Part shown: piece after piece, positions 1 to 13,999 of the stretch
Layout of the letters: each line of letters begins with the position of its first letter
How positions within the stretch are numbered: the stretch's first letter is position 1
Virus record (IMG/VR): IMGVR_UViG_3300028569_000132
Location: 1-28,520 of that record
Length of the DNA: 28,520 bases
Reading direction: 5' to 3' (one strand)
DNA from: a virus
Made by a program: the position numbers and the translations under genes
The notes under the pieces: model-generated
Database searches by the model: none
Told to the model about the DNA's origin: nothing
What the model saw: only the letters and a program-made list of their open reading frames with translations

Positions 1-2
1 CC

Positions 3-227
3 TATGGTGGTATGCCGATGGTCGAGAAGAACGGCCAGAAGGTTCCGGCTTTTGCTGCTGACGGCAAGGGCAAGATGGCCAAGGGCGGCAAGGCTAAGTG
101 TATGGCCAAGGGTGGTCTGGCGGCTGGTCACAAGGCAGCTGATGGTATTGCTAAAAAGGGCAAGACTAAGGCCATGATGCCCAAGATGGCCGGATCAACC
201 GGCATGAAGCGCGGCGGCAAGTGCTAA
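3..227 (+). CDS. KGG-motif small basic protein (5' partial)
   Basis: Short lysine-, glycine- and methionine-rich protein with repeated MAKGG elements and a C-terminal KRGGKC. The frame is open to the left edge (codons Tyr-Gly-Gly precede the first Met at base 12), so the gene probably begins outside the window; an internal start at 12 is the alternative. No enzymatic domain, signal peptide or membrane segment is visible. The same KGG element occurs in several other proteins here (238-597, 13600-13746, 19527-19775, 19777-20037, 20048-20374 and the C terminus of the 8754-11252 product). Function is unknown; the basic composition would suit nucleic-acid or capsid association, which is inference. 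The next gene begins 10 bases downstream after an AAGGAGA ribosome binding site. Confidence 0.65.
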   Translation, partial: YGGMPMVEKNGQKVPAFAADGKGKMAKGGKAKCMAKGGLAAGHKAADGIAKKGKTKAMMPKMAGSTGMKRGGKC

Positions 228-237
228 GGAGACGGAA

Positions 238-597
238 ATGGCTGATGAGAAGAAACCCAAGAAGAAGCTTTCTGCCAAAGTTAGAGAGGCGGCGGCGAGG
301 ATTTATGATAGAAGCGTTTACCCAAATAGCCGTACGGACCTGCTCGACATGGTAAATAATGTTCCAGACCCCCGAGGCCTGCCAGAGAAGATTTATGACT
401 TTGGTGGGGAACGTATAGTAGCTCCAATGGTTGATATGGTTGGGGCCGGGATGGAAAAAGTAGGTATGAGAAAAGGTGGGGAGGTTAAGCGGCGCGCTGT
501 TAAGAAAACATCTGCCGGCAGTTCAGCTAAAAAGCGCACCGCCACGAAAAGCGCACCGCCACGAAAAGCGGACGCCACGAAAAGCGGCCGCAAGTAA
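238..597 (+). CDS. basic KGG-containing phage protein, unknown function
   Basis: 119 residues, starting at an ATG preceded by AAGGAGACGGAA. The N terminus is lysine rich (KKPKKKLSAKV). The middle (about residues 25-80) is ordinary soluble sequence with an amphipathic segment VAPMVDMVGAGMEKVGM, followed by MRKGGEVKRR. The last 35 residues are almost entirely Lys, Arg, Ala, Ser and Thr and derive from a short repeated DNA unit (CCACGAAAAGCG, three times between 541 and 586). This low-complexity basic tail resembles a nucleic-acid-binding tail, but no known domain is recognisable. It shares the KGG element with the preceding gene and with the group at 19.5-20.4 kb. Function is not assigned. Confidence 0.75.
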   Translation: MADEKKPKKKLSAKVREAAARIYDRSVYPNSRTDLLDMVNNVPDPRGLPEKIYDFGGERIVAPMVDMVGAGMEKVGMRKGGEVKRRAVKKTSAGSSAKKRTATKSAPPRKADATKSGRK

Positions 598-625
598 TTT
601 GCTCCCAACCGGGGACCGTGCAACG

Positions 626-649
626 GCTCGTGGCTCAAGGGCCACGAGC
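626..649 (+). promoter_or_regulatory. leader hairpin upstream of the 670 gene
   Basis: GCTCGTGGC (626-634) pairs perfectly with GCCACGAGC (641-649) around a 6-base loop. It ends 10 bases before the GGAG of the next ribosome binding site. There is no T-tract, so it is more likely a leader or processing hairpin than a terminator. It resembles, at a greater distance from the start, the leader hairpins of 3.6-6.7 kb. Confidence 0.55.
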
Positions 650-669
650 TTGTTCAATAGGAGAAAGAA

Positions 670-855
670 ATGAGTGACTTCATGCAGCGGCAGTTCGACA
701 TCAGTCAGGAGCTTATCCGTCTGATGCATCGTGAGCATCAGGAGCGTGCTAAGCTGTCAGAGCTTTACGAGGCCCAGCTTGCGGAGAAAGATAAGGTCAT
801 CAAAAAGCTTCAGGCGACAGTCGAAGCTCTTGAACTTTTGACCAAATCGTCGTAG
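670..855 (+). CDS. small coiled-coil protein
   Basis: 61 residues, ATG preceded by AATAGGAGAAAGAA. Residues 10-60 form one long predicted helix with heptad-like hydrophobic spacing (ISQELIRLM, KLSELYEAQL, VIKKLQATVEALELL) and high charge, so a coiled coil is likely. There is no membrane segment, Cys pair or catalytic motif. It sits in a run of small same-strand genes. I do not recognise the family. A small oligomeric helix bundle that binds another phage or host protein is possible, but that is inference. Confidence 0.7.
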   Translation: MSDFMQRQFDISQELIRLMHREHQERAKLSELYEAQLAEKDKVIKKLQATVEALELLTKSS

Positions 856-897
856 CCTTACGGCAGGGAGATAGTTCCCTACACACAGGAGACACAC

Positions 898-1086
898 ATG
901 AACCCGTATGAACTGCGTTACGAGGTGTTGAAGACCGCGAGAGAGATGCTTGAACACCAGTTCCATGCCAACATGGAGCTTTGGCGTTTGGGTGAGAAGG
1001 CCCTTGAGTCGCTGCCCAAGCCGCCGACCCTTGAAGAGGTGTTGACATTCGCTGACAAGATGAATACTTTTGTCAGCAGCAAGTAA
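898..1086 (+). CDS. small conserved helical phage protein
   Basis: 62 residues, ATG after an ACACAGGAGACACAC leader (good GGAG). The sequence is helical: MNPYELRYEVLKTAREMLEH, then FHANMELWRLGEKALESLP, a PKPPTLEEV hinge and a second helix. The N-terminal pattern (NPYELR-x-VLKTAREMLE) recalls small conserved proteins of T4-like and environmental phages whose function is not known. It is the last gene before the hammerhead ribozyme, whose 5' strand starts only 7 bases after the TAA. Cleavage would therefore place this gene on the upstream mRNA product with a very short 3' end. Confidence 0.75.
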   Translation: MNPYELRYEVLKTAREMLEHQFHANMELWRLGEKALESLPKPPTLEEVLTFADKMNTFVSSK

Positions 1087-1092
1087 GAACTA

Positions 1093-1148
1093 GTCCTTCT
1101 GACGAGTCTTCAGTAGACGAAACGGCTACGAACGTAGCCGTAAAGGAC
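1093..1148 (+). ncRNA. type I hammerhead ribozyme (self-cleaving RNA)
   Basis: Every element of the hammerhead core is present in order. Stem I is GTCCTT (1093-1098) with AAGGAC (1143-1148). The first core is CTGACGA (1099-1105). Stem II is GTCT (1106-1109) with AGAC (1115-1118) around loop TCAGT. The second core is GAAA (1119-1122). Stem III is CGGCTAC (1123-1129) with GTAGCCG (1134-1140) around loop GAAC. The last core A (1122) pairs with T1141, giving the cleavage triplet GTA, so predicted scission is after A1142. All three stems pair perfectly and stem I is open, which defines type I. Hammerhead ribozymes are known in bacterial and phage genomes. In this location it would cut a + strand transcript between the 898 and 1257 genes. 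The in vivo role is inference. Confidence 0.92.
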
Positions 1149-1165
1149 ACGCCCCGTACCTTCCG

Positions 1166-1282
1166 GTGTATAAGTGGGGCAACAGGGATGACGCACCTCG
1201 GCCCACGGTTCTGACCAAGGCTCAAGTCGCCGCCCGTTATCGAGAAAGGAAGAAACGTGAACAGGTACAAAACCGTATTTGA
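1166..1282 (+). CDS. possible 38-residue ORF after the ribozyme (doubtful)
   Basis: A frame open from 1103 reads through the ribozyme 3' side and encodes, from a GTG at 1166, a charged peptide (YKWGNRDDAPRPTVLTKAQ, then a basic helix VAARYRERKKREQ). It ends at 1282, overlapping the 1257 gene by 26 bases. No convincing ribosome binding site precedes the GTG. The composition looks protein-like, so it may be a real short gene, a leader peptide or a remnant of a longer gene. The alternative is that 1149-1256 is simply an untranslated leader. Confidence 0.28.
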   Translation: MYKWGNRDDAPRPTVLTKAQVAARYRERKKREQVQNRI

Positions 1283-1514
1283 CGCCACTGTGGCTGGCAT
1301 TCCGTGCCAGATTGGTGTCCTGTCATATGAGCCGTTGATGCAGGGCCGCTACACAGCGGCACCTGAGAACTGCTACCCGGATGAGGGCGGCTTTGGTGAA
1401 TACGACGTACTAGACGGCAACGGACGACGCGCCTTGTGGCTTGAGAAGAAAATCAAGGACCGCGACGAAGAGCGTATCCAAGAGAGCATTTGTGCTCACA
1501 TGGAGGGTTGGTGA
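1257..1514 (+). CDS. unknown small phage protein
   Basis: 85 residues from a GTG start, chosen because GAAAGGAAG lies just upstream. Sequence features: MNRYKTVFDATVAGIPCQIGVLSYEP, an aromatic/acidic middle and a charged helix WLEKKIKDRDEERIQESI. The N-terminal part looks like a small beta-sheet domain; two to three Cys residues show no zinc pattern. No family is recognised. It overlaps the next gene by one base (TGATG), so the two are probably translationally coupled. It is the first gene on the downstream product of ribozyme cleavage. Confidence 0.7.
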   Translation: MNRYKTVFDATVAGIPCQIGVLSYEPLMQGRYTAAPENCYPDEGGFGEYDVLDGNGRRALWLEKKIKDRDEERIQESICAHMEGW

Positions 1515-1756
1515 TGAACCCAGTTATGGCCTTCCCGTTTAAGGACCCGGAGTTCGGGTTGCAACCGGGCATGAGTCTTCTTGATTTCTTCGCGGCTCAC
1601 GCGCCAGTGACCTTTGACATGGCCCTAAAGGCGTGGGGCGACGACAATATCAACCTGACTGGCAGCGACCTACAGGACTTCTACGCCATGTGGTCTTATC
1701 TGCGCTATGAATACGCCGCTGCGATGATTGGGGAAAGGGAGGCTAGAAATGACTAA
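1514..1756 (+). CDS. small conserved phage protein, unknown function
   Basis: 80 residues from the ATG at 1514, which overlaps the previous stop as TGATG and follows GGAGGG. A longer frame would begin at a TTG at 1490, but that lacks a ribosome binding site. The pattern MSLLDFFAAHAP ... YAAAMIGEREAR resembles the common small phage protein type that starts with a (S/T)LRDWFAGQA-like helix and ends with a YxxADAMLxARE-like helix; its function is unknown. It overlaps the next gene by 8 bases. Confidence 0.75.
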   Translation: MNPVMAFPFKDPEFGLQPGMSLLDFFAAHAPVTFDMALKAWGDDNINLTGSDLQDFYAMWSYLRYEYAAAMIGEREARND

Positions 1757-2003
1757 CGAAGAAATCGTTGAACAGATGGACCAAATCTGCAACGTATCTA
1801 ATTTCATCATGCAGTTGACCAACACGATTCACCCCGGCACGGTTGTCGGCGCTTGCGCCATGGCAGCAGGCTCGATTGGCACCGTCTGCTCCATGTCCAA
1901 AGAAGAGTTCATGGAGCACGTTAGCGGAATGGTCGGGCAAGCTTGGGACCGGCAGTTGGAGGCCCAAGTAGCACAGGCCAAGGACCACGGACCGCTGCAA
2001 TGA
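1749..2003 (+). CDS. unknown small helical protein
   Basis: 84 residues, ATG at 1749 preceded by GGGAGG (the in-frame codons upstream lie inside the previous gene). The N-terminal helix carries Asn/Gln/Ile-rich sequence (EEIVEQMDQICNVSNFIMQL). A Gly/Ala stretch (GTVVGACAMAAGSIGTVC) is moderately hydrophobic but probably too weak for a true membrane span. The acidic C-terminal helix ends KDHGPLQ, which is encoded by a copy of the dispersed GGACCACGGACC element. No family is recognised. Confidence 0.65.
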   Translation: MTNEEIVEQMDQICNVSNFIMQLTNTIHPGTVVGACAMAAGSIGTVCSMSKEEFMEHVSGMVGQAWDRQLEAQVAQAKDHGPLQ

Positions 2004-2098
2004 GCACCATCGACGGACTGGCCATGGTGTGCTGTCCAAAGTGCGGCAGCGACGAACACTTCGATAGCATGCCCCGTTGGGGCCGAAGATTTGATTGA
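2000..2098 (+). CDS. 32-residue zinc-knuckle-like microprotein
   Basis: An ATG overlapping the previous stop (ATGA, 2000-2003) opens a 32-residue frame: MSTIDGLAMVCCPKCGSDEH followed by a short basic tail ending RWGRRFD. The CCPKCG pair with nearby His is a half zinc-ribbon. The arrangement (stop-start overlap, same strand, ending 38 bases before a terminator) is typical of a coupled terminal gene of an operon. It is below the usual length cut-off of gene callers. A single CxxC cannot bind zinc alone, so dimerisation or a partner would be needed. Confidence 0.5.
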   Translation: MSTIDGLAMVCCPKCGSDEHFDSMPRWGRRFD

Positions 2099-2135
2099 AG
2101 AGCACTAGCAAACACGGCCCGTTGACCACGGACCA

Positions 2136-2159
2136 AGGGCCCTTCGGGGCTCTTTTTTT
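2136..2159 (+). terminator. intrinsic terminator with UUCG loop
   Basis: AGGGCCC (2136-2142) pairs with GGGCTCT (2147-2153, one G-T wobble) around a TTCG tetraloop closed by C-G, followed by a run of T to 2159. This is a standard rho-independent terminator closing the 1-2098 gene run. Confidence 0.88.
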
Positions 2160-2172
2160 GCGTCCGGTCTTG

Positions 2173-2188
2173 TGTCTTATATAAGACA
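2173..2188. repeat. palindrome TGTCTTATATAAGACA, copy 1
   Basis: Perfect 16-bp palindrome. A second copy (14 bp of it, GTCTTATATAAGAC) lies at 4998-5011, also in an intergenic leader and also preceded by GTCTT three bases upstream. The AT-rich core and dyad symmetry suit an operator for a dimeric regulator. No candidate regulator is visible in the window. Confidence 0.6.
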
Positions 2189-2360
2189 TAAGAGTCGATT
2201 TTTATCGTTAGTGCACTAAGGGTAGTGGCTCATTTGGTGAGCCACTAAAGTAAGTTAGGGGTGGGGGAGAGTGGGGGAAGAAACAAGGACCACGGACCAT
2301 GGACCACGGAGCTCAAAGTTTGAGCAGAAATCGCTCAAAAGTTGTGCAAAATGGGGGGTA

Positions 2361-2584
2361 TATAGAACTTTTTACCCCCCATGTGTTTTTTTGTGCGTGT
2401 TTGTGAGAATTTTGCCGTAATAGACGTAATGCCGTAATAAGTGAGTATCTATGCGGGTTACAGCTCGTACACTTCTATTACGTTTACTTTCTAGTGTAGA
2501 GTAAAGTAAACTTTTACAGGGAGAGGCGGGGTTTACCCCTATGACGAAAAAAAAAAACATGTAAGGGGGGTAAAAAGTTCTATA
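2361..2584. repeat. 20-bp inverted repeat flanking an iteron/hairpin segment
   Basis: Bases 2361-2380 (TATAGAACTTTTTACCCCCC) are exactly repeated in inverted orientation at 2565-2584, separated by 184 bp. The adjoining inner sequences (T-rich/ATG next to the left arm, A-rich/CAT next to the right arm) are also roughly complementary. The left arm additionally forms a local hairpin, because GGGGGG precedes it at 2353-2358. The enclosed DNA carries CGTAAT repeats and the GTTTACTTT/AAAGTAAAC hairpin. The right arm ends 40 bp before the terS start. Confidence 0.75.
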
Positions 2585-2624
2585 GGGCCCCTGTTTTCTA
2601 GAATCTGTCCAACGAGGAGCTAAC

Positions 2625-3257
2625 GTGTCAAAGAACGATGTCTGGAACGTCCCGCCTGTTATTGCCAATAAGGCGGCGAAGAGGCTGACCACTCCGGTCA
2701 AGCCCCTGAAGAAGTACAAGACCCTGAACCCGAAAGAATGGAAGTTTGTTCAGGAACTGGTTAGCAACGATGGCCACATCACCATGAAGGAAGCCGCCAT
2801 CCGTGCCGGCTATAGCGAACGCTCGGCTAGTGCGATTGCATGGCAACTGACGAACCCTGAAAAGGCACCGCACGTTGTCTCTGCTATTCAGGCTTATAGG
2901 GCAGAACTGAATGCCAAGTACAACACCACGTTCGAGCGCCACATGCGTGACCTTCAACTGATTCGGGACAAGGCTTTGGAAGCCGGTGCGTTCGGTGCTG
3001 CTGTTCAGGCCGAGTATCGTCGTGGCCAAGCCCTTGGCACCATCTACATTGACCGCAAGGAAATCCGGCACGGCACCATCGATTCGATGAGCCGCGAGGA
3101 AGTCGAGAGGAAGCTTCACGAGCTTAAAGCCCTGTACGGTGGACCTCCCCCTAGGGAAATCATTGACATCGCGCCCGAGAGCGTCGTAGAGGCCTCTAAA
3201 CGCGACGTAGACCCCGACTTTAACCCCAACGACTACATCGATGCCGACGAAGCCTGA
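2625..3257 (+). CDS. terS: terminase small subunit
   Basis: 210 residues from a GTG start preceded by CGAGGAGC. TerS recognises the phage packaging site and recruits the large subunit. Residues 30-90 match the typical terminase-small pattern: LNPKEWKFVQELVSNDGHITMKEAA-type helix, then IRAGYSERSASAIAWQLTNP, the helix-turn-helix seen in this family, followed by VVSAIQAYRAELN. Residues 95-170 form a helical oligomerisation region and the tail is acidic (DVDPDFNPNDYIDADEA), as usual for TerL contact. The gene sits directly downstream of the structured region 2160-2624 and overlaps the nuclease gene by 17 bases. Unusually, terL follows only about 4 kb later. Confidence 0.85.
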   Translation: MSKNDVWNVPPVIANKAAKRLTTPVKPLKKYKTLNPKEWKFVQELVSNDGHITMKEAAIRAGYSERSASAIAWQLTNPEKAPHVVSAIQAYRAELNAKYNTTFERHMRDLQLIRDKALEAGAFGAAVQAEYRRGQALGTIYIDRKEIRHGTIDSMSREEVERKLHELKALYGGPPPREIIDIAPESVVEASKRDVDPDFNPNDYIDADEA

Positions 3258-3660
3258 GAGCCGCTTAGCGCAACGTATCAAGGATGGCCTGACCGGCTGC
3301 TACGTCACTCGCATAGAGTCACGCGTGAATCTTGGCATACCGGATTGCTTGATTGCCTTTCCGGGGCGGTTCGTGATGGTCGAGCTCAAGGTGGTGGACA
3401 AGGGGCTCAAGGTGCACCTGAGCCCGCACCAAATTAGCTTCCTGATGACGCACGCCTCCCACAAGTGCCCCGTGTTCGTCGTGGTGCACTACAAAGCCCC
3501 CCGGGAGCGGTATGGCGAGCTTCTGGTGTACGCGGGGGCAGATGCTGACAAGCTTGCCGATATAGGCGTACGCCACGAGCCCCTAGCACGATGGCCAGTT
3601 AATGGCGTCATCTGGGCAGACTTCAAAAAAGTGTTGACAGGAGGATACGGTGTCGCCTAG
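3241..3660 (+). CDS. VRR-NUC / PD-(D/E)XK-type nuclease
   Basis: 139 residues, ATG inside the terS 3' end. The nuclease signature is clear: an N-terminal helix (SRLAQRIKDGL), then IESRVNLGIPDCLIAF with P34-D35, then FVMVELK with E48 and K50, and LSPHQISFL with Q64, matching the PD-(D/E)XK plus conserved Gln pattern of VRR-NUC domains. Such phage nucleases are thought to resolve branched DNA or trim ends during replication and packaging. Tight coupling to terS suggests a packaging-linked role (for example clearing junctions ahead of the motor), which is inference. A TTGACA promoter element for the next gene lies within its 3' end. Confidence 0.82.
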   Translation: MPTKPESRLAQRIKDGLTGCYVTRIESRVNLGIPDCLIAFPGRFVMVELKVVDKGLKVHLSPHQISFLMTHASHKCPVFVVVHYKAPRERYGELLVYAGADADKLADIGVRHEPLARWPVNGVIWADFKKVLTGGYGVA

Positions 3661-3704
3661 TCTGGTGTTGCGGCAGGGAGCCGCATAGAACTGGAGAATG
3701 AATA
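3634..3704 (+). promoter_or_regulatory. promoter plus 5'-hairpin leader cassette 1
   Basis: TTGACA (3634-3639), 18-bp spacer, TAGTCT (3658-3663), then the hairpin TGCGGC/GCCGCA (3669-3674/3680-3685, loop AGGGA), then TAGAACTGGAGAA as ribosome binding site before the ATG at 3705. A transcript starting 6-8 bases after the -10 would begin essentially at the hairpin. The same architecture recurs at about 4500-4575, 5074-5145, 5722-5794, 6253-6322 and 6643-6715. Confidence 0.65.
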
Positions 3705-4406
3705 ATGCTTAAGACAGTAGCTGTATCTGCTAATAAGAAAACTGGCCCGATTGCTGTAACGTATCGCGCCGGCCAGTCCCACACTTACGGCACGTGCCCG
3801 AGCCGCTGCGGATTGCATCCCCTGAAGGTTAGCGGTGCGTCGGCGGTGGACATGGAATATTTGCGGGCGGTGTTCGATGCTGTGCCGCGTGGCGGCGTGG
3901 CGTGGACCTACTCGCATTTTTCTGCCGACACGCTGCCGAAGCCGCAAGCCGGTAAGACGGTCATTAATAGTTCATGCGACACAATTGCGGAGGCGGTCCG
4001 CTCTATGTCCATGGGCATCCCTGCTACGTATACTGCGCCACGTGATAGTGGCGAATGGCCGCAAGTGCATGACGGCGTCAAGTTTGTGCGGTGCCCTGCT
4101 GAGACTGTGGACCGCGTCAACTGCCAGAATTGTGGCGGGGGCCGCCCGTTATGTGCACGTGGGGACCGGTCTTATGTCGTGGTTTTCGTGGCGCACGGTA
4201 CGGGGGCGAAGAGAGTAGGTAAGGACTGCGGCGGCGGTTGCTACGCTGCTAGCGGACCGACTGCTATCCAATGGCACAACACTCGCAAGTCTGGCGCTGC
4301 GAATGATGCGGACGCTCTGCGCCAGTTTGCGGATTCATTACCCCCCGGGTCCATGCTGCGCCACCATGTTGCCGGCGACATTGGCGCGGAGGCCATGGTA
4401 TGCTAA
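3705..4406 (+). CDS. DUF7227-like cysteine-rich phage protein, apparently permuted
   Basis: 233 residues, ATG after CTGGAGAA. Motifs in order: SANKKTGPIAVTY (8-20), TCPSRC (C31, C35), VAWTYSHF (65-72), INSSCD (87-92), VRCPAE (128-133), CQNC-x6-C (140-150), VVFVAHGT (159-166), GGGCYAASGP-x4-W (176-190) and LRHHVAGD (218-225). These match phage DUF7227-type proteins, whose biochemical function is unknown and whose Cys sets suggest metal binding. In the members I recall, the CYAE-GP-W and RHNVAGD blocks come right after TCP-x-x-C, before the TYTHH and AHGT blocks. Here they are at the C terminus. The membrane-peptide gene overlaps its last 7 bases. Confidence 0.72.
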   Translation: MLKTVAVSANKKTGPIAVTYRAGQSHTYGTCPSRCGLHPLKVSGASAVDMEYLRAVFDAVPRGGVAWTYSHFSADTLPKPQAGKTVINSSCDTIAEAVRSMSMGIPATYTAPRDSGEWPQVHDGVKFVRCPAETVDRVNCQNCGGGRPLCARGDRSYVVVFVAHGTGAKRVGKDCGGGCYAASGPTAIQWHNTRKSGAANDADALRQFADSLPPGSMLRHHVAGDIGAEAMVC

Positions 4407-4468
4407 TTATTGTGTTAGCGCTTTTTGTTTACTTGCTCATCGCTTACTTGTCTGATAACTGGGATTAA
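4400..4468 (+). CDS. 22-residue single-span membrane microprotein
   Basis: ATG at 4400 overlaps the end of the preceding gene and has a strong ribosome binding site, CGGAGG (4387-4392), at 7-base spacing. The product is almost all one hydrophobic segment, MLIIVLALFVYLLIAYL, then a polar SDNWD end. The Met-first hydrophobic span with an acidic tail is what a tiny inner-membrane peptide looks like. The length is too short for known holins or spanins. Possible roles are modulation of a host membrane protein or superinfection exclusion; none is shown. Confidence 0.62.
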   Translation: MLIIVLALFVYLLIAYLSDNWD

Positions 4469-4482
4469 CAAACAAGGTGATA

Positions 4483-4568
4483 TTGATAGGAATAAACGAT
4501 TAGACGCCGGCGGGGCACCGGCATAGAGTTCAGTCAACCGGCATGGGGCCGGCCTAGAAAGAGGGAAA
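4483..4568 (+). promoter_or_regulatory. promoter-like repeat plus double hairpin leader, cassette 2
   Basis: Starts with the repeated element TTGATAGGAATAAACGATTA (4483-4502, continuing GAC), also found at 5057, 5674 and 5705. It ends in a possible -35 TTAGAC (4500-4505), with a weak -10 near CATAGAG (4522-4528). Two hairpins follow: GCCGG/CCGGC (4506-4510/4518-4522) and CCGGC/GCCGG (4538-4542/4548-4552, loop ATGGG). Then CTAGAAAGAGGGAAAA forms the ribosome binding site of the next gene. Confidence 0.5.
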
Positions 4569-4575
4569 ATTGAGC

Positions 4576-4938
4576 ATGGACACTAACAGCAGAGTCGGGC
4601 CGTATGTGGGAGTGAGCCGAGATTTTAACCGTGGTCGTTATCGCATCCTGATTTATGGAGCCTTTAACGCATACGGCCTCATCGGTACCGAGTGCAACGG
4701 CGTTGCCGTGTTGGACGATGAAGAGCGGTTAATTGTGGCGGATGAACTTGGGCGTAGTCCAGAGGGCGGATGGTTCGGACCGACAGAAGAGCAGCATCAC
4801 CTTGCCGAATGGTTGCGACTGTGCCCGCCTGATAAGTTTGCGGAGTACATCAACAGCAGCGGCAGGAATCGCCACGTAGTGGACCCGGCTACCGTTCCGA
4901 CCGAGCCGCCGGACCCCTTTGTTTTGGTATCCGACTAA
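4576..4938 (+). CDS. unknown accessory protein
   Basis: 120 residues from the ATG at 4576; a TTG at 4570 in frame is the alternative and lies closer to GAGGG (4561-4565). The first 60 residues look like a compact beta-rich domain (YVGVSRDFNRGRYRILIYG, GVAVLDDEERLIVADELG). The middle is amphipathic helix (EEQHHLAEWLRLCPPDKFAEYI) and the C terminus is Pro-rich and acidic. I do not recognise the family. It belongs to the accessory set with individual promoter/hairpin leaders. A CCGACTA/TAGTCGG hairpin (4931-4947) covers its stop codon. Confidence 0.65.
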   Translation: MDTNSRVGPYVGVSRDFNRGRYRILIYGAFNAYGLIGTECNGVAVLDDEERLIVADELGRSPEGGWFGPTEEQHHLAEWLRLCPPDKFAEYINSSGRNRHVVDPATVPTEPPDPFVLVSD

Positions 4939-4997
4939 AGTAGTCGGGTATATCAACTATAAGGTTTTACTTATCAATGGCTTAGGGTAGGTCTTAT

Positions 4998-5011
4998 GTC
5001 TTATATAAGAC
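4998..5011. repeat. palindrome GTCTTATATAAGAC, copy 2
   Basis: Shares 14 palindromic bp with 2173-2188, and both are preceded by GTCTT-x-TG-type sequence. It lies about 60 bp upstream of promoter cassette 3, in a 207-bp intergenic gap (4939-5145) that holds no gene. Operator-like; function unproven. Confidence 0.55.
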
Positions 5012-5056
5012 TTGCCCGCCATGTATGTAAACCTAGCCCTTATTAGCGGCCCTTGA

Positions 5057-5140
5057 TTGATAGGAAAAAACGATTGGCCGTGGGCCGTGGACCGTGTAAC
5101 ATGGGCACTGTGGCATCCCGCCACACTTAGAACGGAGAAT
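5057..5140 (+). promoter_or_regulatory. promoter-like repeat plus 5'-hairpin leader, cassette 3
   Basis: Repeat element TTGATAGGAAAAAACGATTG (5057-5076). Candidate -35 TTGGCC (5074-5079), 17-bp spacer, -10 TAACAT (5097-5102). Hairpin TGTGGC/GCCACA (5109-5114/5120-5125, loop ATCCC). Ribosome binding site TTAGAACGGAGAA before the ATG at 5146. The spacer is made of GGCCGTGG-type repeats related to the dispersed GGACCACGG element. Confidence 0.6.
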
Positions 5141-5145
5141 GTGAC

Positions 5146-5499
5146 ATGAGCGCGAATTTTGAGCAGGCCGCACCGGCCCTTGATTTGTCCCAGTTCTACG
5201 GGACCGAGAACTATTACCGCCACATTAGTGGCAAGGTGTACACGGATGGCGTCCAGTACTTCGCCAGTCGGGCTGGGGCGTACTGGTTCGTGGACCTTAT
5301 GCTGTTGGAACTGGCAACGGACGAGGGGCCGTTTGTCGCGGTCACGTTGACCGTGAAGGGTGACGCTGCCGACATTTGCGTCACGGACGGTAACGACGGG
5401 GTGTTGGCCCGCAAGTCGATTGAATGGACCGACTGTCCCGAGGGTGAGTACACCTTTTATATCTGCGACGGCGTAATGATGTTGTCGTCGGAGTACTGA
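5146..5499 (+). CDS. DUF6876-family protein
   Basis: 117 residues, ATG with CGGAGAA upstream. The family pattern is recognisable: LSQFYGTENYYRH near residues 14-26, VYTDGVQYFASRAGAYWFVDLMLLE (residues 31-55), a middle beta-rich part (VAVTLTVKGDAADICVTDGN), IEWTDCPEGEYTFYI and a C-terminal LSSEY. DUF6876 proteins are small soluble proteins of phages and plasmids; to my knowledge their function is not known. It has its own promoter/hairpin cassette and is followed after 3 bases by the 5503 gene. Confidence 0.78.
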   Translation: MSANFEQAAPALDLSQFYGTENYYRHISGKVYTDGVQYFASRAGAYWFVDLMLLELATDEGPFVAVTLTVKGDAADICVTDGNDGVLARKSIEWTDCPEGEYTFYICDGVMMLSSEY

Positions 5500-5502
5500 C
5501 CC

Positions 5503-5694
5503 GTGGCCGTCGCAACGTATCACCGCGACGGCTCCGCCGTCGCGGTCCAGATAGGACCAAGGGATTGGTTCTGGCGGGCCTACGTCGAGGGGCGCGAAGT
5601 CGCGCAGGGACACGCCACGAGCAGGAACGCGGCCACGCAGCGCGCCCGCGCTGCGGCTATCAACAAGAGCGGCCTGATAGGAAAAAACTATTAG
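5503..5694 (+). CDS. small basic protein, unknown function
   Basis: 63 residues from a GTG 3 bases after the previous stop; GGAG at 5489-5492 could serve as ribosome binding site at long spacing. Beta-rich N-terminal half (VATYHRDGSAVAVQIGPRDW, then FWRAYVEGREVAQG), then an Arg/Ala-rich helix (SRNAATQRARAAAINKSG). This resembles small single-strand or substrate-binding folds but matches no family I can name. Its last five residues (IGKNY) and stop are encoded by the first copy of the 31-bp tandem promoter element, so the duplication overlaps its 3' end. Confidence 0.55.
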   Translation: MAVATYHRDGSAVAVQIGPRDWFWRAYVEGREVAQGHATSRNAATQRARAAAINKSGLIGKNY

Positions 5695-5736
5695 ACATGG
5701 CCGGCTGATAGGAAAAAACGATTAGACATGGCCGGC
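5674..5736 (+). repeat. tandem 31-bp duplication of the promoter-like element
   Basis: Two adjacent copies begin at 5674 and 5705, each CTGATAGGAAAAAAC-T/G-ATTAG and ending CATGGCCGGC. They differ only at one base (T5689 versus G5720). Copy 1 contains the stop codon of the upstream gene. Single copies of the same core lie at 4483 and 5057. Confidence 0.85.
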
Positions 5737-5790
5737 AGGACCGGGTATAGTGGTAATGTGGCAAGCCCGCCACACTTAGAACGGAGAACG
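5722..5790 (+). promoter_or_regulatory. promoter plus 5'-hairpin leader, cassette 4
   Basis: TTAGAC (5722-5727, inside repeat copy 2), 18-bp spacer, TATAGT (5746-5751). Hairpin TGTGGC/GCCACA (5757-5762/5769-5774, loop AAGCCC), then TTAGAACGGAGAA before the ATG at 5795. The predicted start of transcription coincides with the first base of the hairpin. Confidence 0.65.
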
Positions 5791-5794
5791 AAAC

Positions 5795-6247
5795 ATGAAA
5801 GTAGCAGACCTGATTCTTTTGCTTGCGCCGCTGTCAGACCGGACCATTAGCCTGCGCCATAGCGGCCTGCTCATGGCCCTTGACCGCGAATGCTTGCAAG
5901 TGCTGGACGAAGAGAACGCGGTATTCGAGATGCCGGCCCCCGCTCGCGTCACCCTCGATGACGCTCTTTGCACCTTGGCCGACTGGGTGCGCCACGCGGA
6001 ACTCCGCATCGCGGCGCTTGAGGAGAACGGCCCCGCCGGCATCGACTACAGCGAACTGGCCCTTAACCTCGACATGTCCGACCTCGCAGGCGAGGTTGAC
6101 CGGTCCGACCTCGCCGGATACGTCGACATGTCCGACCTCGCCCAATACGTCGACATGTCCGACCTCGCCGGACACCTTAACATTGATGACGCCGTAGAGG
6201 AGGCGGTCAACGACACGCTGCGCGACGCTCGGTTTAGGTTAGCGTGA
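5795..6247 (+). CDS. acidic DMSDLA-repeat protein
   Basis: 150 residues, ATG after CGGAGAACGAAAC. The first 85 residues form a predicted alpha/beta domain (MKVADLILLLAPLSD, LLMALDRECLQVLDEEN). A helix follows (ALCTLADWVRHAELRIAALEE). Then come four copies of a 9-residue acidic repeat of the form (Y/L)VDMSDLAG (about residues 90-128) and a C-terminal helix. Similar (I/V)D-x-x-DLA repeats occur in other phage proteins and are thought to form extended solenoid or coiled surfaces; their role is unknown. The TGA stop is the first element of the 62-bp repeat at 6244. The gene has its own promoter cassette. Confidence 0.72.
   Translation: MKVADLILLLAPLSDRTISLRHSGLLMALDRECLQVLDEENAVFEMPAPARVTLDDALCTLADWVRHAELRIAALEENGPAGIDYSELALNLDMSDLAGEVDRSDLAGYVDMSDLAQYVDMSDLAGHLNIDDAVEEAVNDTLRDARFRLA
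6068..6178 (+). repeat. 27-bp tandem repeats in the 5795 gene
   Basis: GACATGTCCGACCTCGC or close variants start at 6071, 6098, 6125 and 6152, a strict 27-bp period encoding nine residues per unit. Copy 2 reads GACCGG in place of GACATG. Confidence 0.9.
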
Positions 6248-6320
6248 TTCGCTTGCACCTGCCCGCAAGGGCAGGTTATAATGCAGGGGCAGCATCCCGC
6301 TGCCCCTAGAATGGAGAACG
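6244..6320 (+). promoter_or_regulatory. promoter/double-hairpin leader, cassette 5 (62-bp repeat copy 1)
   Basis: Begins with the upstream stop codon. TTGCAC (6253-6258), 18-bp spacer, perfect TATAAT (6277-6282). The spacer itself is a hairpin, ACCTGCCC/GGGCAGGT with a GCAA loop (6257-6276). Downstream of the -10 is GGGGCAGC/GCTGCCCC (6286-6293/6299-6306, loop ATCCC), then TAGAATGGAGAA. Bases 6244-6305 are identical to 6634-6695. The first hairpin could alternatively end upstream transcription. Confidence 0.72.
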
Positions 6321-6322
6321 AA

Positions 6323-6637
6323 ATGCGTACTATTAAAATCGGTTATCACCGCTTTGCTGTCCCGTCTAACTGGACTTCTAAGAACGTGGGCGAGTTTGCG
6401 GCCCAGATGTCGGAACTGACTCAGGTTAGCGACTTGTCCGAAAAGGTTGGCGAATCGTGGACTTCAGTCCCTTACCTGAATGAATTGGACGGCGTGACCA
6501 TCGGCCATGTCGGGTTCGTGCTGCCGAACTACGAGTCCGCCCGCCAGCATCTTGACGGCCTGAAGGATGCCGCCGAAGACCAGCGGCAGGAGCGGGACCG
6601 GCGCGGCGTGTCCAACATCGGCAGCGTAGCGACGTGA
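6323..6637 (+). CDS. unknown accessory protein
   Basis: 104 residues from the ATG at 6323, placed by TAGAATGGAGAA; an earlier in-frame ATG at 6281 overlaps the -10 element and is unlikely. The N terminus, MRTIKIGYHRFAVPSNWTSK, looks beta-rich. The rest is NVGEFAAQMSELTQVSDLSEK, VTIGHVGFVLPNYES and a charged helix (LDGLKDAAEDQRQERDRRG). The layout (leading strand, VPSNW, then helix) suggests a small soluble regulator, but no family is recognised. The stop lies at the start of the second copy of the 62-bp leader repeat. Confidence 0.65.
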   Translation: MRTIKIGYHRFAVPSNWTSKNVGEFAAQMSELTQVSDLSEKVGESWTSVPYLNELDGVTIGHVGFVLPNYESARQHLDGLKDAAEDQRQERDRRGVSNIGSVAT

Positions 6638-6712
6638 TTCGCTTGCACCTGCCCGCAAGGGCAGGTTATAATGCAGGGGCAGCATCCCGCTGCCCACTAG
6701 AACGGAGAACGA
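6634..6712 (+). promoter_or_regulatory. promoter/double-hairpin leader, cassette 6 (62-bp repeat copy 2)
   Basis: Exact 62-bp copy (6634-6695) of 6244-6305: TTGCAC (6643-6648), TATAAT (6667-6672), the GCAA-looped spacer hairpin and the ATCCC-looped 5' hairpin (GGGCAGC/GCTGCCC). It diverges just after the hairpin (CACTAGAACGGAGAA versus CCTAGAATGGAGAA), showing that the leader rather than the gene has been duplicated. Confidence 0.72.
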
Positions 6713-6715
6713 ATT

Positions 6716-6925
6716 ATGACAATGATTATCGGCAACCAGATTCCTTTATTCCGCCTGATGGTCCTGCGGAGCGGACTAACACTTGAAATCAAGGGGCTGC
6801 GGGTCAGCAACGGCCGCTCGTGCGCCGCCATCATCCGCGAGATGATTGGCAGCAAGACCAGCGACAAAACCGCGCTGCTGCTCGAGTTCGAGCAATGGCT
6901 GGAACGTCACGCGGAAATCGCCTAA
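6716..6925 (+). CDS. unknown small protein
   Basis: 69 residues, ATG after CGGAGAACGAATT (a second ATG follows at 6722). The sequence reads MIIGNQIPLFRLMVLRSGL, LTLEIKGLRVSNGRSCAAI, then a helix (REMIGSKTSDKTALLLEFEQWLERH). The N-terminal half looks like a small beta element and the C-terminal half is helical, similar in size to small phage inhibitors or DNA-binding proteins, but I recognise no family. It is the last gene before the 315-bp hairpin region that precedes terL. Confidence 0.6.
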   Translation: MTMIIGNQIPLFRLMVLRSGLTLEIKGLRVSNGRSCAAIIREMIGSKTSDKTALLLEFEQWLERHAEIA

Positions 6926-7239
6926 CGCACCGGGCACGGTTCTTGCCTTAGCAAGGACCGTGCCATCCGAGCAGGCATGGTTCTTGCCTTAGCAAGAACC
7001 ATGCCAAGGTACCCTAGTACCGAAAGGCGCTAGGGAAAGCGCCTTTATGCAATATTCTTCTTCCCACAAGGCGGTGGCGGGGGTGGGCGGGCCCGCCACT
7101 CTCGATTTTGGACAAACAGCTACCACCAAACGCATTTTGCCCCCATAGTTAGTAGGCGCTTCTTGCCAAACCCACCCCCTTGTTTTATTTTGCAAATCTG
7201 GCTCAAAATTTATGCAAAATTTTTTCAAACGGAAAGTTC
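6926..7239. other. non-coding hairpin-array region between accessory genes and terL
   Basis: No gene seen. Hairpin 1 is 6934-6963 (13-bp stem, loop CTTA, one G-T wobble). Hairpin 2 is 6975-7004 (13-bp perfect stem, loop CTTA). Hairpin 3 is GGTAC/GTACC (7008-7021, loop CCTA). Hairpin 4 is AAAGGCGC/GCGCCTTT (7023-7030/7039-7046) with a short T-rich tail, a weak terminator candidate. Hairpin 5 is GTGGCGGG/CCCGCCAC (7074-7081/7092-7099) around a G-rich loop. The last 60 bases before terL are AT-rich. Confidence 0.7.
7023..7050 (+). terminator. candidate terminator after the accessory cluster
   Basis: AAAGGCGC (7023-7030) pairs with GCGCCTTT (7039-7046) around TAGGGAAA and is followed by a short T/A stretch (TTTATGC). 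The stem is good but the T-tract is weak, so termination may be partial. Confidence 0.4.
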
Positions 7240-8715
7240 ATGACAGACGATAAGCGGCGTCAGGAAATCGAGACAGAGATAGCCAAATACGAGCTTCGTC
7301 TGGCTCTTTTGGCGTCACAGGACAAAGCAAAGACCGACTTCCTGTCTTTCTGCCAATACGTCTGGCCCGAGATGCTTGTTGGGGAGCATCATCGCAAGAT
7401 TGCCGAGGCCCTTGATAGGGTAGTCGAGGGCAAGTGCAAGCGTCTGATGATTGCAATGCCGCCGCGTCATGGCAAAAGCCAGATGGGCAGCTATCTGTTC
7501 CCCGCGTACATCATGGGCCGTAAGCCGAATTCCAAGGTCATTGTTGGGTCACACACGGCTGAACTCGCGCAACGCTTTGGCCGGATGATTCGAAACCTTG
7601 TCTCTGACCAGAAGTACAAGGAAATCTTCCCCGGGATGAGCCTCTCTGCCGACAGTAAAGCCGCTGGCCGGTGGGACACGAATGAAGGCGGTGAAGCGTT
7701 CTTCATTGGTAAGGGCGGTGCAATGACGGGCCGTGGGGGCAATATTGTCGTTCTGGATGACATCTTGGACGAACAGGATGCAACGTCCGAGACTGCTATG
7801 GAGAACACTTATGAGTGGTACACCTCTGGACCACGGCAACGCTTGCAACCGGGCGGGGCCATTATCATCATCAACACCCGTTGGAGTCCTGACGACCTGT
7901 CTGGTCGGCTCTTACGACAGCAATCACGGCTCAAGGCTGACCAGTGGGAGGTTTTGGAGTTTCCTGCAATCCTGCCTAGCGGCAATCCGTTGTGGCCGGA
8001 ATACTGGAACATTGACGAACTCGAACAAGTAAGGGCGTCTCTTGGGCCGAAGAAGTGGTCCGCGCAGTGGCAACAGCAGCCCACGAATGATGAGGGTGCG
8101 ATTCTCAAGCGGGAGTGGTGGAACATCTGGAAGCACGACGAGCCGCCGCCGTGTGATTATGTGATTCAGAGTTTGGATACTGCGTATTCCAAAAAGGAGA
8201 CGGCTGACTATTCGGTTATTACGACGTGGGGTGTGTTCCGTCCCGGCCCAGATGCCCCTGTCTCAATTATCCTGCTCGGAGTCGAGCGTGGTCGGTGGGA
8301 CTTTCCTGAATTGAAGCGGGTAGCGTACGACGCGTATAAGGCGTGGAATCCGGACAACATCCTGATTGAAGCAAAGGCTTCGGGTATGCCGCTCATGCAG
8401 GAGTTGAGGCGGCTGGGTATCCCTGTCACCTCCTTCAGCCCCGGTGGGCGGCGCACGGGCACTGACAAGGTAGCGCGGGCCAATTCCATTGCGCCTATGT
8501 TTGAGGCCGGTTTGGTATGGGCCCCGGACACTTATTGGGCGGAGGACCTCATCGAAGAGTGCGCCGCGTTCCCTGTTGGGCAGCACGATGACCAAGTCGA
8601 TAGTACGACGGCTGCATTGGCGCGTTTTCGTCAGGGTAATTTTGTCAGTTTGCCTTCTGATTATCCGGACGAGGAAACTCCCGAAGAGGACGCTAGCCAA
8701 TATGAATACTACTGA
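7240..8715 (+). CDS. terL: terminase large subunit (packaging ATPase and nuclease)
   Basis: 491 residues from the ATG at 7240, preceded by CGGAAAG (an upstream in-frame ATG at 7180 has no ribosome binding site). ATPase: Walker A MPPRHGKS (73-80), Walker B IVVLDDI (169-175), coupling region IINTRWSPDDLSGR (210-223). RNase H-like nuclease: SLDTAY with D313, ILIEAKASG with E378, and HDDQVDSTTAAL (449-460) with the last acidic residues. All expected catalytic residues are present. It drives DNA into the procapsid through the portal and cuts concatemers. The C terminus is acidic (PDEETPEEDASQYEYY). It is unlinked from terS by about 4 kb of accessory genes. Confidence 0.95.
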   Translation: MTDDKRRQEIETEIAKYELRLALLASQDKAKTDFLSFCQYVWPEMLVGEHHRKIAEALDRVVEGKCKRLMIAMPPRHGKSQMGSYLFPAYIMGRKPNSKVIVGSHTAELAQRFGRMIRNLVSDQKYKEIFPGMSLSADSKAAGRWDTNEGGEAFFIGKGGAMTGRGGNIVVLDDILDEQDATSETAMENTYEWYTSGPRQRLQPGGAIIIINTRWSPDDLSGRLLRQQSRLKADQWEVLEFPAILPSGNPLWPEYWNIDELEQVRASLGPKKWSAQWQQQPTNDEGAILKREWWNIWKHDEPPPCDYVIQSLDTAYSKKETADYSVITTWGVFRPGPDAPVSIILLGVERGRWDFPELKRVAYDAYKAWNPDNILIEAKASGMPLMQELRRLGIPVTSFSPGGRRTGTDKVARANSIAPMFEAGLVWAPDTYWAEDLIEECAAFPVGQHDDQVDSTTAALARFRQGNFVSLPSDYPDEETPEEDASQYEYY

Positions 8716-8753
8716 CTTACAATACGGTTGACATTTTCCGAGGACCGTGGTCC

Positions 8754-11252
8754 ATGGCCCAAGAACCCGTAACTAATCTCATCCGTACTGAGGCGCAGAA
8801 GCAGGGTGTCAACCCAGATTTGGCGATTCAGATTGCGAGTGTTGAGTCGGGCCTGAACCCGTCCGCTCAAAACCCCAAGTCAAGTGCTGCTGGCCTGTTC
8901 CAGTTGATTGACAGGACGCGCAAAGAGCTTGGTGGTGACCCCAAGAAGAAGCTTGACCCGTTGGAAAACGTGCGTTTGGGCGTGAAGCTCATCAAGCAGA
9001 ATGAGGGTCAGTTGATGAAGAACCTTGGACGACGGCCCACGGACCATGAATTGTACATGGCGCACCTGTTTGGGCCTACTGGTGCGGTCAGTTTGATTCA
9101 GGCGGACCCGACTACACCGGTGCAGAAGGCGGTTTTGGGGTTTTCTAGTCCTAAAACGGCGGATGCCATCGTCAAAAACAACCGTTTGACGGGTACGGTG
9201 GGCGACGTTATTGGCAAGTTCCAACAAAAATTTGGTGGAAAGCCTCAAACCCAACAAAAAACTGCGCCGGTAAAGCAAAAACCGGCTGCGCCTGAGGGCC
9301 CGATTCCGTTTACGACGGGCTTTGACTTTGCTGACCTAGGGCCGAGCTATCAGGCGGCTTTTGCGTTGGCGAGTCTGGGCATGTTGGAGGCTCCTACGGA
9401 AGGTGAGGAGCAGGAGAAAAAGAAGGTTGAGGTAGAGAAAGAGCCGCAGCAGCCGAGCAAGTCGTCGCAGATGCTGGCCGGCATGAAGTTGCCGGAGCCT
9501 TTGGCTTTTGCAGGAGGCGGAAGTGCGGAAAAAGCGCCCCCGGTGGTTGTAACCCCGGAAGAAAAGCCCAAAACTGAGGCCAAGAGTATGCTGGACAAGC
9601 TTTTGGAGACACGGAAAGAGGTCATCAGCACACTTCCGGGGTTACAACCACCGGAAGAAAAGCCCAAAACTGAGGCCAAGAGTATGCTGGACAAGTTTTT
9701 GGAGACACGGAAAGAGGTCATCAGCACACTTCCGGGCATGGGAGCGGACATGGCCGCGTCCACGATTAACCCTGTCTACGGTGCGGCTGCGTCAGCAGCG
9801 GACTTTGAGATTGCACGGCGCGAAGGCGACCTTCTGGGCATGGGCCTGTCTGGCATTGGCCTTATTCCCGGTCTTGGGCCGGCGCTCAAGGGCATCGGCA
9901 TGAAGGCCGCTCCGGCTATTCTTGGTGCGATTCGCCCCAAGGGCGGCGTCTTCATGACTTCTGGTAAGTACGGGGAAGTGGTGGGACCGAACAAGCGGGC
10001 AGACACCTTCTCCAAGTTTGACAACGACATGAACAACATTTTGGACAGGGTGGAAATTAAAGCCAAAGCGGAGATTAGCGGCATTTCTCAGGAATCGGCG
10101 GACGCTATCAGGGAACTGTTCGACAAGAAGGCCCGCAAGTACTTCACGACGCAGTTTGCGTCCGTTGATGACCCGCTTTATGACGCTCTCAAGGAAGGCC
10201 GCATCAAGCCGGTTGGGGAACCAGACAAGAAGCTGTTCCGTAGATACATGGTCACCAAGGCACAAGAAGGTGACCCGGAAGCACTGGAAGATTTGGCTGT
10301 TGCCTACGACAAGGCACTTCATCGGTCTGTTTTTGTTCCAAAGGGCCAAATGTATTCAACGGAAGCGTTTAACCTGAGTGGACGCAGAAAAAAAGAAGCA
10401 CGGGAGTTGGCAGAGTCGCAACGTCTTGCAGCCGAAGAAAAGTTGGCCCCGGAAGAACTGCGTAGCATGGAAGTTTTATTCGTTGACCATAAAGAGCTCG
10501 ATAGTCTTCTGCATGGAGAAGGGGCCAACGTACCTCCGCACATTCAACGCGCCCTTTCGGAGGGCGAGATGGTCTACGACATCAGCAATTTTGATGTGCC
10601 TAAGTTTATGAAACCGTCCGAAGAAATGATTGATGAACTGGCCAAGATTGACCCGGCGGTTCTCAAGAAAATGAACTATCCAGAGGCGGTAGTCGCCATT
10701 AACAAGCCGATGCGCTTTGCAGTAGACTGGGTGGATGTTGTCAATACCGCGGACAAAAAGGGCGCAAAAGCAGTGCCCAAGGAAAGCAGAGCCATGTTCA
10801 CCCAGACTGTGATACCTCTGGGCGACGGACAAAAGTGGGTCAGGCTCACCGACAGTAAGGCCGCTGCTCTAGAGGGCAAGATGATGAAGCACTCTGTCTG
10901 GCTCTACGACAAGAAAGGGAATTACGGACCGCTCAAAGGTGGGAAGGACGATTTTGACTCTGGGAGGGTTGAGGTGTTCTCGCTGCGTGGCCCCGACGAT
11001 ATACCTGAACTTACCATTGAAGTGGATAAGGCAACATCACTTACGGGCGACGGTATCGTTACTCAGGTTAAGGGACGCTTTAACGAGAGTCTTGAAGGTC
11101 TCCTGCCTTACGCAGACCAGATTGTTTCCTTCTTCGAGAAGACCGGTTATGTTCCGGGTGGACTAGACATTCCAGACGAAATCCTGCAACGCATCAGAAA
11201 ACCAGTTGGTAAAGCCAAAGGCGGTATGGTAGATAAGCCGCTGTACTCCTAA
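8754..11252 (+). CDS. large virion protein with N-terminal lytic transglycosylase domain
   Basis: 832 residues, ATG 9 bases after GAGGA. Residues 5-140 form an SLT-type transglycosylase: IQIASVESGLNPSAQNP carries the catalytic Glu (E31), followed by SSAAGLFQLI and VRLGVKLIKQNEG. Residues 155-290 are a Lys/Gln/Pro-rich linker, then two tandem copies of a 32-residue unit (about 268-328). Residues 330-395 are Gly/Ala-rich and moderately hydrophobic (GLIPGLGPALKGIGMKAAPAIL). The C-terminal 430 residues are soluble and unrecognised, ending in a KAKGGMVDKPLYS tail. Known phage proteins of this build are ejected with the DNA and locally cut peptidoglycan. Position between terL and portal is unusual. 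Confidence 0.82.
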   Translation: MAQEPVTNLIRTEAQKQGVNPDLAIQIASVESGLNPSAQNPKSSAAGLFQLIDRTRKELGGDPKKKLDPLENVRLGVKLIKQNEGQLMKNLGRRPTDHELYMAHLFGPTGAVSLIQADPTTPVQKAVLGFSSPKTADAIVKNNRLTGTVGDVIGKFQQKFGGKPQTQQKTAPVKQKPAAPEGPIPFTTGFDFADLGPSYQAAFALASLGMLEAPTEGEEQEKKKVEVEKEPQQPSKSSQMLAGMKLPEPLAFAGGGSAEKAPPVVVTPEEKPKTEAKSMLDKLLETRKEVISTLPGLQPPEEKPKTEAKSMLDKFLETRKEVISTLPGMGADMAASTINPVYGAAASAADFEIARREGDLLGMGLSGIGLIPGLGPALKGIGMKAAPAILGAIRPKGGVFMTSGKYGEVVGPNKRADTFSKFDNDMNNILDRVEIKAKAEISGISQESADAIRELFDKKARKYFTTQFASVDDPLYDALKEGRIKPVGEPDKKLFRRYMVTKAQEGDPEALEDLAVAYDKALHRSVFVPKGQMYSTEAFNLSGRRKKEARELAESQRLAAEEKLAPEELRSMEVLFVDHKELDSLLHGEGANVPPHIQRALSEGEMVYDISNFDVPKFMKPSEEMIDELAKIDPAVLKKMNYPEAVVAINKPMRFAVDWVDVVNTADKKGAKAVPKESRAMFTQTVIPLGDGQKWVRLTDSKAAALEGKMMKHSVWLYDKKGNYGPLKGGKDDFDSGRVEVFSLRGPDDIPELTIEVDKATSLTGDGIVTQVKGRFNESLEGLLPYADQIVSFFEKTGYVPGGLDIPDEILQRIRKPVGKAKGGMVDKPLYS
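9555..9736 (+). repeat. 96-bp-period tandem repeat inside the transglycosylase gene
   Basis: Copies at 9555-9640 and 9651-9736 differ at a single base (C/T in AAGCTTTTGG versus AAGTTTTTGG). In addition, the 19 bases at 9540-9558 recur in inverted orientation at 9636-9654, bracketing copy 1. The duplication is in frame and looks recent. Confidence 0.9.
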
Positions 11253-11261
11253 GGAACAGAC

Positions 11262-13622: not shown

Positions 13623-13746
13623 TAAGAAGGTCGTCTCCAAAAAGCCGGTCAAAAAGGCTGATGGCGGGGAAATTACGTACAAAAGGGACGGAAATAACCC
13701 TGTACACTTGTATTCTAAAGGCGGTTGCGTTAAAAAGAAGCGTTGA
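13600..13746 (+). CDS. 48-residue basic KGG protein
   Basis: ATG at 13600 within the portal 3' end, with TGAGG at 13582-13589 as a plausible ribosome binding site. The product is very basic: MPLKTGRSKKVVSKKPVKKA, DGGEITYKRDGNNPVHLYSK, then GGCVKKKR. The YSKGGCVKKKR end matches the KGG element of the other small basic proteins here. Short length and overlap make it easy to miss. Function is unknown, probably nucleic-acid or capsid associated by composition (inference). Confidence 0.6.
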   Translation: MPLKTGRSKKVVSKKPVKKADGGEITYKRDGNNPVHLYSKGGCVKKKR

Positions 13747-13762
13747 CTTGGTCAACAGCCCT

Positions 13763-13784
13763 CAAGCGGTGGCATAACCGCTTG
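13763..13784 (+). promoter_or_regulatory. hairpin upstream of the 13803 gene
   Basis: CAAGCGGT (13763-13770) pairs with ACCGCTTG (13777-13784) around a 6-base loop and is followed by CTTTTC. It could be a weak terminator or an mRNA processing/stability hairpin in the gap between the portal-linked gene and the next gene. Confidence 0.45.
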
Positions 13785-13802
13785 CTTTTCATGGTGAGTC
13801 CC

Positions 13803-13988: not shown

Positions 13989-13999
13989 GGAGAAAATCC

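Follow-up and report, generated by a model that had tools for sequence, protein, structure and literature searches.

Repeated leaders with a predicted 5' hairpin precede small genes in a family of bacterial viruses

In a family of bacterial viruses from fresh water and the sea, many small, uncharacterised genes are preceded by a recurrent leader cassette, in which a -10 box is followed by a hairpin and then by a strong ribosome site. We describe this cassette from a window of DNA, a 28.5-kb viral contig analysed over its whole length of 28,520 nucleotides, where it forms a module between the small and large terminase genes. Judged by comparison of sequences, the hairpin is real, is conserved as a structure, and extends more widely than the window. 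Stabilisation of mRNA is its likeliest role, an assignment that draws on its position and on general knowledge.

The module lies between the small terminase gene at 2625, with a nuclease-like reading frame at 3241, and the large terminase gene, which runs from about 7219; the portal gene is at 11262. All module genes are on the plus strand. The first (3705..4406) encodes a DUF7227 (PF23872) protein (family match 5.6e-36), and is followed by a small gene (4576..4938) that has no family match in PHROGs or Pfam. The next (5146..5499) encodes a DUF6876 (PF21781) protein (family match 2.2e-29), and a scan of viral contigs with this protein gave no match. The small gene at 5795..6247 contains tandem 27-bp repeats at 6052-6186, which produce a nine-residue repeat in the protein. 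The small gene at 6323..6637 is homologous to a family of genes found in relatives, fam3 (E 1.4e-7); comparison of an AlphaFold model of its protein (pLDDT 86, pTM 0.50) with PDB and BFVD turned up no convincing match in fold. A small gene of another family, fam14 (6716..6925), is the module's final gene ahead of the large terminase, and directly 3' of it, at 6933-7000, are two near-identical 27-bp copies, each readable as a long hairpin. In a DNA comparison with sequenced phages, the only match to the window was 254 bp of DSL-LC04.

The original prediction held that six leaders in this module share one architecture, and this has stood up: all six have a hairpin with a stem of 5-9 bp, located 2-8 nt 3' of a plausible -10 box, and promoter spacers of 17-18 bp. 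The leader of the DUF7227 gene (3634..3704, plus strand, as are the others) has the predicted promoter TTGACA-18-TAGTCT with its -10 box at 3658-3663, then, after 5 nt, the hairpin TGCGGC-AGGGA-GCCGCA (3669-3685), and TAGAACTGGAGAA. In the leader of the 4576 gene (4484..4575), the conserved block TGATAGGAATAAACGATTAGACG is found with a candidate promoter, TAGACG-17-TAGAGT (-10 at 4524-4529), whose spacer holds an inverted repeat (4506-4522); the hairpin CCGGC-ATGGG-GCCGG (4538-4552) starts 8 nt from the end of the -10 box and precedes a deviant ribosome site, TAGAAAGAGGGAAAA. The 5146 leader (5058..5145) consists of a conserved upstream block, TTGGCC-17-TAACAT (-10 at 5097-5102), the hairpin TGTGGC-ATCCC-GCCACA (5109-5125) at a distance of 6 nt, and TAGAACGGAGAA. 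The upstream block occurs twice (5675 and 5706) in the 5795 leader (5675..5794), followed by TAGACA-17-TATAGT (-10 at 5746-5751), the hairpin TGTGGC-AAGCCC-GCCACA (5757-5774) 5 nt further on, and again TAGAACGGAGAA. The last two leaders both use TTGCAC-18-TATAAT. Ahead of 6323 (6243..6322), a spacer inverted repeat (6257-6276) ends at the -10 box, the hairpin AGGGGCAGC-ATCCC-GCTGCCCCT (6285-6307) follows after only 2 nt, and the ribosome site reads TAGAATGGAGAA. Ahead of 6716 (6633..6715), the spacer inverted repeat is at 6647-6666, the -10 box at 6667-6672 and the hairpin GGGCAGC-ATCCC-GCTGCCC at 6677-6695, 4 nt from the -10 box, with TAGAACGGAGAA downstream.

A TAGAA/GGAGAA ribosome site had been claimed for all six leaders. 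Five of them have it, with TAGAAYGGAGAA exact in four and carrying one extra base ahead of 3705; the exception is the 4576 leader, whose degenerate site, TAGAAAGAGGGAAAA, has no GGAGAA. A reading of the hairpins as intrinsic terminators was rejected, since they precede TAGAA and the ribosome site, are not followed by a T run, and scored zero of six in a terminator scan. Rfam 15 at its gathering score gave no match in the window. Several other repeated elements were seen. The block TGATAGGAAAAAACGATTAGAC, which lies upstream of and includes the -35 element, has four copies (4484, 5058, 5675 and 5706) with none expected by chance, and in some relatives its GATAG forms the 3' arm of another hairpin. 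Sequence of the GGACCATGGACCACGG type recurs between genes and in promoter spacers, in the window at 2105-2310 and 5080-5096 and also in leaders of a related contig, L005. Finally, a 10-bp hairpin at 626-649, close to a ribosome site, lies ahead of the gene at 670, with neither TAGAA nor a clear -10 box.

How much can be learned from the window by itself? An identical stretch of 63 bp is shared by positions 6243-6305 and 6633-6695, and the pair 5089-5149 and 5738-5798 is 74% alike across its 61 bp, so that the six leaders amount to about four independent stems. Folding z-scores are strong for the 6323 and 6716 leaders (-3.7 and -2.75) and weak for 3705 and 5795 (both -1.9) and 4576 (-0.8), while the 5146 leader scores -0.15 as a whole and -3.7 for the hairpin alone. 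Given this variation, the window on its own is no proof of selection on the fold. Bare consensus matches are likewise at chance level as evidence for promoters (7 found in positions 1-14000, 7.4 expected from shuffled sequence). Support for the promoters comes instead from the fixed position of the -10 box, the hairpin and the start codon in relatives. Within the window, the structural half, with starts from 7811 on, is nearly free of such hairpins, unlike the module starts.

Relatives of the terminase and of the DUF7227 protein were scanned for a -10 box, a ribosome site and an open frame, with no hairpin required. A stem of at least 6 bp was present in 67 of 224 promoter-plus-start candidates from terminase-related viral contigs (6.4 in shuffled sequence) and in 69 of 176 from DUF7227 relatives (again 6.4), counts that are not all independent since some contigs are closely related to each other. 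The pattern GATAGRAAVAAACNATTRGM matched 50 stretches, mostly from unrelated phages; those left after removal of contigs already in the set formed the negative control, which gave one such stem in 121 candidates (0.5 shuffled). When leaders with similar 40-base 3' ends were dropped, 235 non-redundant leaders with a ribosome site remained, and 75 of these have a stem of at least 8 bp, compared to 2.4 in shuffled sequence. The stem foot in relatives is mostly 4-7 nt 3' of the -10 box, where +1 is expected, which agrees with the predicted placement of the hairpin at the transcription start. In the full-length records whose cassettes were located by script (G001 and G002), the cassettes are grouped in a single block. 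Outside the module, a conserved hairpin leader was also seen 3' of the large terminase gene, ahead of a gene whose protein starts with MLEF (L020 10724, L028 16735, L033 10557, L082 13810 and others).

Leaders can also be compared by gene family, the downstream proteins having been grouped by likeness. The hairpin is kept in all 28 fam3 leaders, all 10 fam6 leaders and 36 of 38 fam2 leaders, but in just 12 of 48 DUF7227 leaders, and at the leader position in the module of the cultured phages HTVC023P and HTVC027P GC hairpins are absent. The expectation that hairpins would be conserved along with genes thus holds for three families and fails for DUF7227 and the two cultured phages, and these absences indicate that the hairpin is a gene-specific and dispensable option rather than an obligatory part. 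A search of fam3 that dropped the ribosome-motif requirement found a stem of at least 7 bp in 52 of 57 distinct leaders (1.7 shuffled); among the five remaining, three, the window's included, reflect starts called inside or beside the -10 box, and one, from L005, has a 5-bp stem. Our literature search, which reached few subscription journals, gave no account of this feature in HTVC023P-type phages or in DSL-LC04.

The fam3 stems are unrelated in sequence and show compensatory changes. In an alignment of 13 leaders that are free of register problems (A2), 99% of the pair cells hold a pair and four of the 10 pairs have changed on both sides, while slid controls of the same alignment are 13-32% paired; these 13 leaders come from two gene families with similar leaders, so the alignment also reflects leader copying. 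A larger alignment of 27 leaders (A1) was out of structural register in some rows, and only A2 was counted. Over a wider set, 122 hairpins have 110 distinct 5' arms and many loop sequences, and the prediction that stems differ while pairing is preserved is borne out. The further claim that the fold is under selection fares better on relatives than on the window: the z-scores in the window are insufficient, and it is the fixed position, pairing and covariation, as read from related sequences, that argue for it. A comparison of G-U with A-C mismatches in the stems gave 5 against 2, numbers too small to separate a constraint on RNA from one on DNA.

Leaders, to judge by their sequences, are copied between genes. 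Genes of fam2 in one phage and of fam3 in another can have the same hairpin ahead of them, and the counterparts in L005 of the window's two identical leaders differ from each other; one window leader has been copied over another.

The geometry of the cassette is regular. The 3' end of the hairpin is a median of 21 nt from the ATG (middle half 19-23), and the median hairpin energy is -15.4 kcal/mol, compared to -5.8 kcal/mol for shuffled sequence. In leaders that have no hairpin the -10 box is a median of 20 nt from the ribosome-site motif, as opposed to 34 nt in leaders with one. Predicted openness of the ribosome site is 0.627 with the hairpin intact, 0.631 when it is deleted in silico, and 0.596 when it is scrambled (p 0.001). 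From these distances and leader lengths, and from the unchanged openness, the hairpin resembles an insert that separates the start of transcription from the ribosome rather than a switch for the ribosome site.

The footprint of an initiating ribosome reaches about 20 nt 5' of the start codon. We propose that the leader is a reusable expression cassette, used in a large group of phages on the small, mostly uncharacterised genes that separate the two terminase genes. Transcription by host sigma70 RNA polymerase would begin at the hairpin foot or within about two bases of it, so that few bases at the 5' end, or none, stay unpaired. The 3' end of the hairpin would in turn sit at the edge of the initiating ribosome, about 21 nt from the ATG, and since it ends there, hairpin and ribosome together would cover nearly the whole leader. 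Both RppH and RNase E require single-stranded 5' ends, which is why 5' structures can stabilise mRNA (PMC3997798). Here the hairpin and ribosome may block RppH and 5'-end-tethered RNase E, giving a longer life to short transcripts from genes whose expression has to be strong and independent. A protective cap for short-lived messages seems probable because the hairpin's letters differ completely from virus to virus and yet still pair. Taken as a whole, the proposal of largely single-gene mRNAs, transcribed with host sigma70 and shielded by a 5' hairpin from decay that depends on the 5' end, is one that we favour with moderate confidence; the transcription start, the use of host polymerase, early timing and mRNA stabilisation are all parts that we infer.

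What is known of the hosts bears on this proposal in several ways. One contig of a Rhodoferax metagenome-assembled genome (MAG) carries the same leaders together with a terminase of 77% identity, which suggests a Burkholderiales host for part of the phage group. RNase E/G proteins encoded in this genome favour the proposal. Against it stand the weak match to RppH in the same, incomplete genome, the modest reach of RppH in E. coli, where its inactivation affects only about 10% of mRNAs (PMC3997798), and the absence of the hairpin from most DUF7227 leaders and from the module of the two cultured phages. The cultured relative HTVC027P encodes no RNA polymerase and relies on that of its host, with its early genes uncharacterised (PMC12753301); this dependence fits expression from host promoters, but the HTVC027P data are no test of the hairpins, because its module lacks them.

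Could the hairpin serve translation instead, stopping bases further 5' from annealing to the ribosome site or providing a standby structure, and hardly influence decay? Its location just beyond the expected ribosome footprint would suit such a role, as would the slight loss of openness on scrambling (0.627 to 0.596, p 0.001). However, deletion is without effect (0.631), and leaders with the same ribosome site exist that have no hairpin; we regard this explanation as unlikely.

Less likely still is that the inverted repeats act in DNA, as an operator or a supercoil-sensitive element around the promoter. Such an action would account for the perfect pairing of most leader stems (77 of 92) and for a second class of inverted repeats, which lie outside the downstream mRNA, in the spacer between the -35 and -10 elements. 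These occur in 35 of 100 hairpin cassettes (10.6 in shuffled sequence), and 21 of the 35 end at the -10 box. Yet stems differ among the promoters of one genome, unlike the operators of a single protein, and the leader repeat begins at the predicted +1 and does not span the promoter. The spacer repeats, three of which lie in the window, are variable in sequence. About half of those that end at the -10 box have that box no more than 35 nt from an upstream stop codon; others are far from any stop, and a T run follows few. One speculative idea, to which we assign a low probability, is that the spacer repeat is the 3' end of the preceding mRNA while the leader hairpin caps the next, giving a chain of hairpin-bracketed single-gene messages. 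If true, a 3' end and a promoter would be fused into a single element whose letters drift while its pairing is kept.

The original prediction also raised binding of the hairpin by a shared regulator. A phage protein that binds the hairpin and controls the module has a precedent in the operator hairpin upstream of T4 gene 43 (PMC3014915), and many loops in the closest relatives of the window are rich in C (A-N-CCC). Across the hairpin set, however, neither stem nor loop sequence is conserved (110 of 122 5' arms are distinct), which makes a common sequence-reading regulator unlikely, although a binder that recognises structure only would be unaffected by this argument. Overall we doubt this explanation as much as an action in DNA. 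The weakest alternative, that perfect repeats are kept by template-switch correction and leader copying rather than by functional selection, can call on the 63 identical bp in the window and the hairpin shared by fam2 and fam3 genes of different phages, but is very improbable given the fixed place of the hairpin between the -10 box and the ribosome site, its near-complete conservation in fam3, fam2 and fam6, and its near absence from unrelated phages and from the window's structural genes.

How does a protective 5' hairpin compare with known systems? The 5'-terminal stem-loops of E. coli ompA and papA mRNAs are demonstrated stabilisers of single genes (PMC3997798). The cassettes resemble them in having a stable predicted 5' hairpin upstream of the ribosome site that would be expected to block RppH and RNase E, and in conserving pairing rather than sequence; they differ in the hairpin's recurrence on many genes within a single phage module, and in being known from sequence alone. 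Among phages, the leader of T4 gene 32 and hairpins with a CUUCGG loop are reported to confer mRNA stability (cited in PMC8948821). These too are phage leader hairpins, but the CUUCGG loop is fixed, while the loops of the cassettes differ and are not in general CUUCGG.

Repeats near start codons have also been described. In cluster K mycobacteriophages, short start-associated sequences (SAS) and their extended form (ESAS) occur at the starts of many non-structural genes, with function not established; about half of the SAS sites have an inverted repeat just upstream, and the 17-bp ESAS repeats have a consensus, for which the authors saw little support for an mRNA hairpin (PMC3203893). The likeness lies in a repeated short site by start codons with an inverted repeat upstream. 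The repeated sites in our cassettes are TAGAAYGGAGAA and AGAAAGGATAGAG, and not the 13-bp SAS 5'-GGGATAGGAGCCC; unlike ESAS, the cassettes vary in sequence, with stems that differ between genes of one genome, while they retain their pairing and have a -10 box immediately 5' of them. Citrobacter phage Mordin has a 26-bp SAS-like repeat with CTGGAGAA before eight hypothetical genes (PMC4611695), reported as a sequence repeat, with no hairpin or promoter described (PMC4611695). The cassettes bring RNA-level covariation to leaders resembling SAS/ESAS, whose hairpin formation was doubted.

In sum, the cassette puts a known kind of element to a new use. Stabilising 5' hairpins are known from single genes; here, in a large group of phages, the hairpin is apparently a standard, swappable part, used gene after gene, with a position set by the promoter at one end and by the ribosome at the other while its letters are free. 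The cassettes offer more than 100 natural variants for studying 5' structure against mRNA lifetime, and may mark out in the sequence those genes whose strong and independent expression matters to these phages.
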